Origin: Aquificaceae bacterium
GTDB taxonomy: Bacteria > Aquificota > Aquificia > Aquificales > Aquificaceae
NCBI GenBank assembly: GCA_027014155.1
Contig: JALWEG010000032.1
Coordinates: 1-37,064 of the forward strand
Direction: 5' to 3'
Length of the DNA stretch: 37,064 bases
This document shows, piece after piece, positions 35,188 to 37,064 of the stretch (the first letter of the stretch is position 1; every line of letters begins with the position of its first letter). Made by a program: the position numbers and the translations under genes. The notes beneath the pieces were generated by a model. It was not told where the DNA came from and searched no databases. It saw only the letters and a program-made list of their open reading frames with translations.

Positions 35188-36246
35188 ATGGGCTGCTGGC
35201 AGGGAATCATAAATCAATACTCCGAGTTTCTTCCCGTATCTGACAAAACGCCCGTAATAACGCTGCTGGAAGGGAACACACCCCTGATAAAGGCGCAAAA
35301 CCTCGCAAGGGAGATAGGCTTTAAGGGAGAGATTTACCTAAAGTACGAGGGACTCAACCCTACGGGTTCCTTTAAGGACAGGGGAATGACCGTTGCCATA
35401 TCCAAAGCCAAGGAGAAGGGCAAAGAGGCGGTGATTTGCGCCTCTACGGGAAACACCTCGGCTTCCGCGGCGGCTTACGCGGCAAGAGCGGGAATGAGAG
35501 CCTACGTCCTGCTTCCCAAAGGTGCTGTTGCCCTTGGAAAGCTCTCCCAAGCCATGATATACGGAGCCAAGGTCTTGGCGGTAAAGGGAACCTTTGACGA
35601 TGCCCTGCACATAGTCAGGAAGATAGGAGAAAGCTATCCGGTGGAGATAGTCAACTCGGTGAACCCTTACAGACTTGAGGGACAGAAGACGGGAGCCTAC
35701 GAGGTATGCGATGCCCTTGAAGATGCACCAGACTACCATTTCATACCCGTAGGGAACGCGGGCAATATAACCGCCTACTGGAGAGGATACAAAGACTACT
35801 ACAGGAAGGGGAAGGTGAAGAAACTCCCCAAGATGATGGGCTGGCAGGCGGAAGGTGCCGCTCCCATAGTTAAGGGCTTTCCCATAAAGAACCCCCAAAC
35901 GGTGGCAACGGCCATAAAGATAGGAAATCCTTACAGCTGGAAGAACGCCCTCAAAGCTGCGCAGGAGTCGGGAGGCAGCATAGGTGCCGTCAGCGACGAC
36001 GAGATACTTTTCGCCTACAAGCTGGTAGCCTCCTGTGAGGGGGTGTTCTGTGAGCCTGCCTCCGCCGCAAGCGTTGCCGGCCTCGTGAAGTTAACGAGGG
36101 AGGGATTCTTTAAGGGTGGCGAAAGGGTCGTATGCACACTAACCGGCAACGGACTGAAAGACCCCGACACTGCCATAAGGGTCTGCGAAGAGCCCACCGA
36201 CGTTCCTCCTGTTCTTGAGAAAGTGGTTAAAGAGCTGGGGTTTTAG
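35188..36246 (+). CDS. thrC: Threonine synthase
   Basis: PLP enzyme that converts O-phosphohomoserine to threonine. The PLP lysine is K63 in PTGSFKDRGM, the substrate-binding ASTGNTSASAAAYAARAG follows, and the Gly-rich phosphate site VGNAGNITAYW (about residue 188-198) is present. The length of 352 residues fits the short class of the enzyme. ATG 35188 is preceded by AGACATT without Shine-Dalgarno, with a -10 box 14 nt away. The gene ends at the border of the structured RNA region; no ordinary terminator follows. Confidence 0.96.
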   Translation: MGCWQGIINQYSEFLPVSDKTPVITLLEGNTPLIKAQNLAREIGFKGEIYLKYEGLNPTGSFKDRGMTVAISKAKEKGKEAVICASTGNTSASAAAYAARAGMRAYVLLPKGAVALGKLSQAMIYGAKVLAVKGTFDDALHIVRKIGESYPVEIVNSVNPYRLEGQKTGAYEVCDALEDAPDYHFIPVGNAGNITAYWRGYKDYYRKGKVKKLPKMMGWQAEGAAPIVKGFPIKNPQTVATAIKIGNPYSWKNALKAAQESGGSIGAVSDDEILFAYKLVASCEGVFCEPASAASVAGLVKLTREGFFKGGERVVCTLTGNGLKDPDTAIRVCEEPTDVPPVLEKVVKELGF

Positions 36247-36261
36247 CGAGATAATTAGTAC

Positions 36262-36660
36262 AGGAGGAGTCTTTTGTGGCTAAATGGGGGTAAGCCACCG
36301 ACTACTTTATCTAAAAAACACTCCAAGACTCCTTCCGTAAGGGAGGAGATACGGAGTGTCGCTCGTAAGGGCGTTAAAATATAAGTTGACCGGAAAACAT
36401 TTGTGGAGTAAATTAGCAAATAGTTAAATACCCCACCGCTCCCGAAAGGGAGACCAAAAGCTTTAAGGAGGGGTAGAAGAAGAACTAAGAAACGGAAAGT
36501 AGCTCCACTACCTATCTTCGGGTAGGTAGGCAGGAGTAGAGGCGGAGTGAACCCGCCTGTTGTGGTAAGGGACGCTACGAGTGTCCAAACCCACACGAAG
36601 CTCCGTCCGTGAGGGCGGAGAGGTTCACTAACAAGGTCATACTTAAGCGTTGCTATCTTA
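36262..36660 (+). repeat. First copy of the structured RNA unit
   Basis: Ordered landmarks: CTAAATGG (36280), a double-hairpin module (36318-36375), GAAGAACTAA (36479-36488) and GGTTCACT (36622-36629). The module has a 7-bp outer stem ACACUCC/GGAGUGU, an 8-bp inner stem with GUAA loop, then a 5-bp hairpin with GUAA loop. Copy limits are approximate. Confidence 0.5.
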
Positions 36661-37064
36661 GGCCTAAATGGATATATATGGCAAGAGAAGAGCAAGGAGT
36701 TATAAAAGAAGAGATTCAGGAAGACGGGAGGATACGCAAATGGGTGTATATTGAAGAAGAAGATAGGTATTTAACTAAACCTACGCTCTAAGTCCTCTTC
36801 CGTAAGGGAGGGTTGTGCAGTGCGTCGCCCGCAAGGGCGTTCTGGGGTTGCACGTAGTGGGGTGAAGAACTAAAATAATTTATGCAGGTGGAGAGCTAAA
36901 GGGGTGTGATGCCAGCCTCCACCTGAGTGGTAAAAGGTTTGTAGTAGATTAGAAACAAAAGGATTTAGGGTTCACTCACCTGACGGGTGGTAGGGTCGGA
37001 GCGACCCGAACTAACGCCTGTGGAGAGAGCTCTGGCGGGATACTCTCAGAGGAGGGTGTTAGCC
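36661..37064 (+). repeat. Second copy of the structured RNA unit, cut by window edge
   Basis: The same landmarks recur: CTAAATGG (36663), the double-hairpin module (36783-36841), GAAGAACTAA (36864-36873) and GGTTCACT (36969-36976). The 14 bases at 36798-36811 equal 36333-36346, and 36824-36841 equals 36358-36375 except for two T/C changes. Spacing between landmarks differs from copy 1, and a short ORF lies before the module. Confidence 0.5.
36679..36792 (+). CDS. Doubtful 37-codon ORF inside the structured RNA region
   Basis: ATG 36679 to TAA 36792 encodes a charged peptide starting AREEQGVIKEEIQEDG and ending in EEEDRYLTKPTL. Composition (Glu/Lys/Ile rich) looks like protein of this genome, but there is no Shine-Dalgarno, and its last codons form part of the second RNA module. 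The frame stays open upstream to 36609 through an RNA hairpin. It may be a real small protein belonging to the RNA element, a remnant of a larger gene, or chance. Confidence 0.25.

Follow-up and report, generated by a model that had tools for sequence, protein, structure and literature searches.

TnpB-less IS200/IS605-type elements carrying a predicted omegaRNA scaffold and a promoter-like sequence in place of tnpB in Aquificaceae

Introduction

The last 818 nucleotides (36247-37064) of a 37,064-nucleotide stretch of Aquificaceae DNA, here called the window, are rich in hairpins, and the locus raises the question of what these hairpins belong to. TnpB guide RNAs are normally cut out of the tnpB mRNA. 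Guide RNA loci that lie apart from the nuclease gene are known as the trans-encoded omegaRNAs of IscB, and IStrons combine an IS605-type element with a structured RNA. A first-pass annotation, made by reading the letters, had proposed something else for this locus, namely a possible free-standing giant RNA class akin to OLE, GOLLD and ROOL, present as two tandem copies. The hairpins and GNRA loops that it quoted are present: the hairpin at 36330-36347 reads TCCTTCC-GTAA-GGGAGGA and that at 36795-36812 reads CTCTTCC-GTAA-GGGAGGG, with T36330-A36347 changed to C36795-G36812 and C36331-G36346 to T36796-G36811, and in a second hairpin a T-G pair is replaced by C-G and the loop GTAA by GCAA.

Results

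Two dispersed repeat families at the end of the window

We compared 36247-37064 with its own genome (1.86 Mb in 67 contigs, the window being contig C32) by BLASTN and obtained 52 matches, which fell into two separate dispersed repeats (query positions 60-382 and 524-818). The two families lie side by side, A at 36306-36628 and B from 36770 to past the contig end, and neither includes 36247-36305 or 36629-36769. A and B resemble each other only in a 72-bp stretch at the left end (about 75%) and in the final 32 bp; the supposed tandem copies are thus two different repeat families, as the BLASTN search and the alignment agree. Four motifs had been described as recurring in the same order in both copies, and only the LE hairpins among them are homologous. 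In the remaining pairings, 36280/36663 lies outside both elements, 36479/36864 matches the linker of A to the -10 region of B, and 36622/36969 matches the right end of A to the interior of B. As the annotation had stated, the structure runs off the right edge, with B crossing the contig end.

Standalone copies were present at no fewer than 12 sites for A and at least 8 sites for B in this genome (sites counted as left ends whose match extends past position 80), with flanks that differ between copies in both families. Most of these copies are intergenic. Many contigs of the genome terminate within A or B copies, and the window itself stops at a contig end because the repeat breaks the assembly; the two repeats account for the position of the assembly breaks. 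The ends of A coincide exactly among 6 complete copies and many partial ones, and nearly all A and B copies of this genome finish at GGTTCAC, with single exceptions of GGCTCAC and AGTTCAC. All A copies start with TTTATCT except L026, which has GTTAT, and B copies start with TTTAACT apart from a shifted copy (L039). Complete copies of B elsewhere are 386 bp long. The features of the two elements are as follows.

36306-36628, + strand: element A, TnpB-less, IS200/IS605-type, 323 bp including the left target pentamer (common exact ends; LE and RE in the tnpB-bearing copy L040)
36306-36310, + strand: left target pentamer TTTAT, the would-be TAM (same in A copies of five genera; one copy GTTAT)
36318-36373, + strand: LE hairpins of A, 36318-36359 (with the inner GTAA hairpin) and 36360-36373 (from the sequence; common to the LE of L040)
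36386-36414, + strand: predicted A promoter, TTGACC - 17 nt - TAAATT (sigma70 scan; -35 identity between genomes 0.85 versus spacer 0.68)
36429-36475, + strand: predicted 5' stem-loop of the A RNA (not in tnpB-bearing copies)
36491-36620, + strand: predicted A omegaRNA scaffold, including the RE hairpin 36601-36620 (homologous to the tnpB 3' end and RE of tnpB-bearing copies)
36547-36552, + strand: loop GTGAAC of A, complementary to the terminal GTTCAC (36623-36628), a putative pseudoknot beside the guide (both segments invariant in 19 sequences)
36623-36628, + strand: right end GTTCAC of A (same in aligned A copies)
36629-36648, + strand: flank that would serve as guide (by analogy with ISDra2, PMC8612924; flanks vary between copies)
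36770-37064, + strand: element B, the second TnpB-less element, first 295 of about 386 bp, truncated by the contig end, with TTTAA at 36770-36774 (repeat search, alignment)
36848-36876, + strand: predicted B promoter, TTGCAC - 17 nt - TAAAAT (between-genome identity -35 0.95, spacer 0.69, -10 0.92)
36888-36922, + strand: predicted 5' stem-loop of the B RNA, GTGGAG...CTCCAC (alignment; U-A to C-G change in L201)
36972-37064, + strand: predicted first part of the B omegaRNA scaffold (matches the tnpB 3' end of tnpB-bearing B copies)

Two further observations concern the surroundings of B copies. A short open frame at 36678-36791 of the window (MAREEQGVIKEEIQEDGRIRKWVYIEEEDRY...) continues across the TTTAA target into B's left end and could represent the beginning of a gene that B has interrupted, and another B copy (L017) directly adjoins, upstream of position 2001, the 3' end of a putative tRNA gene.

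tnpB-bearing relatives

A 1.5-kb relative of A (L040, contig C65) encodes a 473-aa TnpB (OrfB_IS605, E 5e-18; Cas12f1-like_TNB, E 6e-13) and has in common with A the left 80 bp and the right 100-140 bp. B-type tnpB-bearing relatives were found as pieces at contig ends of the window's genome and in 17 other genomes of the phylum (E <= 1e-80). A full element in G062 (L204) comprises the B left end, a Y1 transposase (PF01797, E 5e-45), TnpB and the B right end, and in G052 (L180) a Y1 transposase (E 1e-46) precedes an A-type tnpB between A-type ends. No TnpA with ends matching A or B was found in the window's own genome; its two Y1 matches were rejected as the cognate transposase, both coming from another IS with other ends.

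Both ends of A and B have subterminal hairpins; the ends are fixed, no target duplication accompanies them, and the Y1 TnpA elements L204 and L180 share them. Their scaffold is homologous to the tnpB 3' end and RE, stops at the right end and has a conserved secondary structure. tnpB is absent in cis from both, and the 5' block described below leaves no room for it. Judged by these sequence features, A and B are TnpB-less, non-autonomous IS200/IS605-type elements carrying a predicted omegaRNA scaffold, because copies with tnpB (and, in other genera, with tnpA and tnpB) share their ends and the 3' RNA scaffold. The free-standing giant RNA of the annotation gives way to the omegaRNA part of such transposons, which has no Rfam match. 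Part of the hairpin content, the LE and RE hairpins, is expected to be the DNA target of the single-strand transposase.

A promoter-like sequence and 5' stem-loop in place of tnpB

The unusual part of these elements, missed in the earlier reading, is a conserved promoter-like sequence with a predicted 5' stem-loop that replaces tnpB. The order is the same in A and B: a sigma70-like promoter (with a 17-nt spacer in most copies), about 11-15 nt, the 5' stem-loop, a variable linker and the scaffold. The block was found in standalone A copies of 5 genera and in standalone B copies of several Aquificaceae genomes and of family f5, and in none of the tnpB-bearing copies examined. Within positions 82-302 of A the latter align only from about position 188 onward, and with B they align only at positions 1-72 and 203-386. 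The interiors of A and B are not tnpB sequence, and the elements are therefore not fresh deletions. Because the A and B blocks show no evident sequence similarity, this arrangement seems to have evolved on two separate occasions.

Across A copies the promoter reads TTGAC(A/C)-17-TAAATT, and in aligned copies it is the best sigma70 match of the whole element; six related A copies of G052 have the -35 box and a weaker or displaced -10 box. The B promoter TTGCA-N-17-TAAAAT is present in nearly all aligned copies, and in some B copies of other genera another site scores equally as a sigma70 promoter. Between-genome identity in B was 0.95 for the -35 box, 0.69 for the spacer, 0.92 for the -10 box, 0.66 for the leader, 0.89 for the 5' stem, 0.65 for the linker and 0.87-0.89 for the scaffold, with a variable hairpin at 0.33. 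The corresponding values in A were 0.85, 0.68, 0.75, 0.66, 0.76 and 0.52 from the -35 box to the linker and 0.91 for the scaffold, a pattern of conserved and drifting segments that is weaker than in B. It looks like that of a promoter followed by a structured RNA.

RNA folding and covariation

For the inferred A transcript (36421-36628) the predicted folding energy is -86 kcal/mol, compared with a mean of -60.7 for shuffled sequences (z = -5.6; 0 of 200 shuffles as good), and a complete B copy folds less strongly (z = -2.9; 2 of 200 as good). In the A alignment 98% of cells were paired and two-sided changes numbered 35, against 10 in shuffles; in B these figures were 97.5% and 21 against 7. 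None of 500 shuffles reached the covariation score of either family (scores uncorrected for relatedness), which supports the earlier claim of selection on RNA structure. The covariation falls mostly in the scaffold, and the 5' stem-loop contributes one two-sided pair in A and one in B, the latter being the U-A to C-G change of L201, identified by eye. GAACT in B is complementary to the terminal GGTTC (helix 7) and is invariant, as are GTGAAC and GTTCAC in A; pairing of the terminal bases with the internal loop would create a pseudoknot right before the guide.

The proposed check against Rfam covariance models returned no family at the gathering threshold, for the window or for L013, L201, L128 and L122. 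Relaxing the threshold to E <= 5 on 35500-37064 gave only chance matches and no group I core.

The interior of the B 5' stem is nearly invariant (AGCUANANGGGUGURAUGCCAGC; L013 2114-2147 and homologs), beyond what pairing needs, and is possibly a protein-binding motif.

Distribution in other genomes

The annotation had also called for a search in other genomes, and this placed the A block in four further genera and B in several genomes as well as family f5. Positions 82-302 of A recur in G005, G025, G030 and G052 between other LE and RE hairpins, a different palindrome replacing the LE hairpins; TTTAT and TTCAC are unchanged. With a covariance model built on the A block, 22 clear copies were recovered, exactly in these four genomes and the window's own, one genome per genus. 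A pattern scan for the A 5' domain across the genome contigs matched only Aquificota and one Coprothermobacterota sequence, and the latter, unsupported by the covariance model, was rejected. The A 5'-domain model also gave a weak match (30.7 bits) at L189 1501-1585 in G073, which belongs to a different family within the order; this may reflect distant kinship or chance. L041, a shortened derivative of A, lacks the promoter and 5' stem block.

Standalone B was recovered whole at 72-81% identity in other genera (G016, G017, G021, G025, G061 and G062). A diverged standalone B occurs in another family (G120). This copy (L201 49-410) lies antisense within a tape-measure-like gene. When its flanks are joined at TTTAA, the open frame ...KKLYDF continues into IKSINLFEAGKRILETLT and is similar to phage tape-measure proteins on both sides of the join (E 5e-4). 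The joined flanks restore the tape-measure frame, and B was therefore inserted beside TTTAA without duplication; lying antisense, its guide would match the uninterrupted gene. Candidate gene-restoring junctions at copies in the window's genome were rejected, their joined-flank frames looking antisense or entering genes that start downstream, which leaves L201 as the sole good case.

Matching TnpB in carrier genomes

Carrier genomes were enriched in the matching TnpB. A-type TnpB was present in 3 of 5 genomes with standalone A (9 of 64 genomes overall; P = 0.017, uncorrected for phylogeny), and B-type TnpB in 6 of 8 genomes with standalone B (18 of 136 overall; P = 6e-5, likewise uncorrected), one of the six being a broken gene. 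A matching intact TnpB was not found in the drafts G005 and G025 (for A) or G017 and G120 (for B). G025 (L145-L149), a draft 99% complete, holds at least 5 standalone A copies, no A-type TnpB at E <= 1e-60 and one broken B-type TnpB gene.

Most of the length of B-type TnpB can be aligned with ISDra2 TnpB structures (E 4e-55), and the canonical D-E-D and the zinc ribbon are retained. In A-type TnpB (L040 1994-3412, minus strand; L172-L175) Gly replaces the usual RuvC-II Glu (IYIGDA, not I-x-x-E-D/N) and the zinc ribbon is degenerate; the frame is conserved across genera at 69-79%. A-type TnpB may be catalytically altered.

Discussion

We think that A and B are probably self-transcribed, free-standing omegaRNA genes, which would behave as satellites that move via TnpA and use TnpB in trans. 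The observations behind this are the ends, the loss of tnpB, the scaffold homology, the conserved promoter-like boxes and 5' stem, the covariation and one precise insertion at TTTAA; from them we infer transcription, the use of TnpB in trans, the targeting of empty sites and the role of the 5' stem. RNA polymerase would start just downstream of the -10 box, and the RNA would comprise the 5' stem-loop, the scaffold, the RE hairpin and then host flank, of which the first 16-20 nt would be the guide. TnpB from a tnpB-bearing relative elsewhere in the cell would bind the scaffold, and the RNA would take it to the corresponding empty site (guide sequence next to TTTAT or TTTAA), thereby restoring excised copies, and TnpA would mobilise the element in trans. 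ISDra2 TnpB binds right-end RNA whose last approximately 16 nt derive from the flank, and cuts that sequence beside the transposon target motif (PMC8612924); by analogy, every copy of A or B would direct TnpB to the empty counterpart of its own insertion site. The 5' stem would probably protect the 5' end or substitute for TnpB-dependent 5' processing. TnpB can release its RNA from the mRNA only if its RuvC domain is intact (PMC10278001), and with an A-type TnpB that lacks the usual RuvC-II Glu, a promoter of the element's own would remove the need for processing. Several results weigh against the proposal: the four draft carriers in which no matching intact TnpB was found, the Gly of A-type TnpB, which makes cutting by this partner uncertain, the failure to find a TnpA with matching ends in the window's own genome, the six G052 copies with a weaker or displaced -10 box, and the concentration of covariation in the scaffold.

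A broader version of this proposal seems to us evenly balanced between right and wrong: mobile, self-promoted guide-RNA genes would have originated at least twice (A and B) from Aquificota TnpB transposons, as protein-free satellites that borrow the parent's transposase for movement and its TnpB, in trans, for homing, while a dedicated 5' RNA domain takes the place of TnpB-dependent processing.

The strongest alternative, in our judgement unlikely, is that A and B are plain deletion derivatives of the PATE or MITE type, in which only the ends matter and the scaffold and interior are passive remnants. Such elements are known, since in Halanaerobium the LE, the last 58 nt of tnpB and the RE are kept (PMC7290912); L041 is a block-less derivative of A, and the best matches to the A 5' stem stay within one bacterial family. 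The interior of A and B is not tnpB, however, and recurs across genera with promoter, stem and scaffold conserved while spacer and linker drift, and the scaffold covaries in copies that are unable to encode TnpB.

Less probable again, though worth naming, is that the RNAs have another role, as a regulator of TnpB or TnpA (decoy or inhibitor) or as a host sRNA, acting through the 5' stem. The almost invariant interior of the B 5' stem, the possible catalytic alteration of A-type TnpB and the carrier genomes without a matching TnpB fit this reading, and part of a TnpB mRNA can inhibit cutting (PMC10278001). Against it, the elements keep a full scaffold and a precise junction to varying flank, which would be superfluous for a decoy, and the copies are dispersed and still mobile-looking.

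An IStron, a self-splicing intron joined to an IS whose RNA excises from interrupted genes, would account for a highly structured RNA across a mobile element, an IStron-like layout, and for the B copy within the tape-measure gene of L201. We regard it as very improbable: no group I or II intron was matched in the window, L013, L201, L128 or L122, the copies of the window's genome are mostly intergenic, and the RNA strand in L201 is antisense to the gene and hence unable to splice that mRNA. A tandemly duplicated giant ornate RNA, to which the hairpin density and compensatory changes had pointed, has next to no chance of being correct given the transposon ends, the dispersal and the homology to the tnpB 3' end and RE.

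Taken as self-transcribed omegaRNA genes, A and B resemble several known systems in part. In ISDra2-type TnpB transposons the omegaRNA or reRNA likewise consists of the tnpB 3' end and RE, stops at the right end, takes its guide from the flank and has its target motif at the left end (PMC8612924), whereas the RNA of A and B sits on tnpB-less elements with their own promoter-like sequence and 5' stem-loop. The Halanaerobium PATE and IS605 MITE-like elements are also non-coding, keep LE and RE (the Halanaerobium one also the tnpB tail), and were presumably moved in trans (PMC7290912), but the PATE is a plain deletion present as a single copy, whereas A and B occur in several genera and contain a conserved block that is not tnpB sequence. 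RAGATH-18, formerly an orphan structured RNA class, is now recognised as the guide RNA of IS607 TnpB, and 64% of its RNAs adjoin tnpB while the remainder do not (PMC11061315); A and B differ in being IS605-type and in having no Rfam match. The trans-encoded omegaRNAs of IscB differ in their partner, which for A and B would be TnpB, and the IStrons differ in that no intron core was found in A or B. The openly accessible literature yielded no account of TnpB-less elements that possess a dedicated promoter and 5' domain, nor of any TnpB-less elements in Aquificota, and we consider the novelty provisional. If the proposal is true, a self-promoted, self-moving guide RNA would be a satellite of an RNA-guided nuclease and a stage on the way to guides encoded in trans, as in CRISPR, and it would become testable whether TnpB maintains elements that do not encode it.

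Finally, the same A RNA core is found between two unrelated sets of LE and RE hairpins in different genera (L126-L129 and L145-L157 versus L009-L014), as if the RNA module had moved onto another set of transposon ends.
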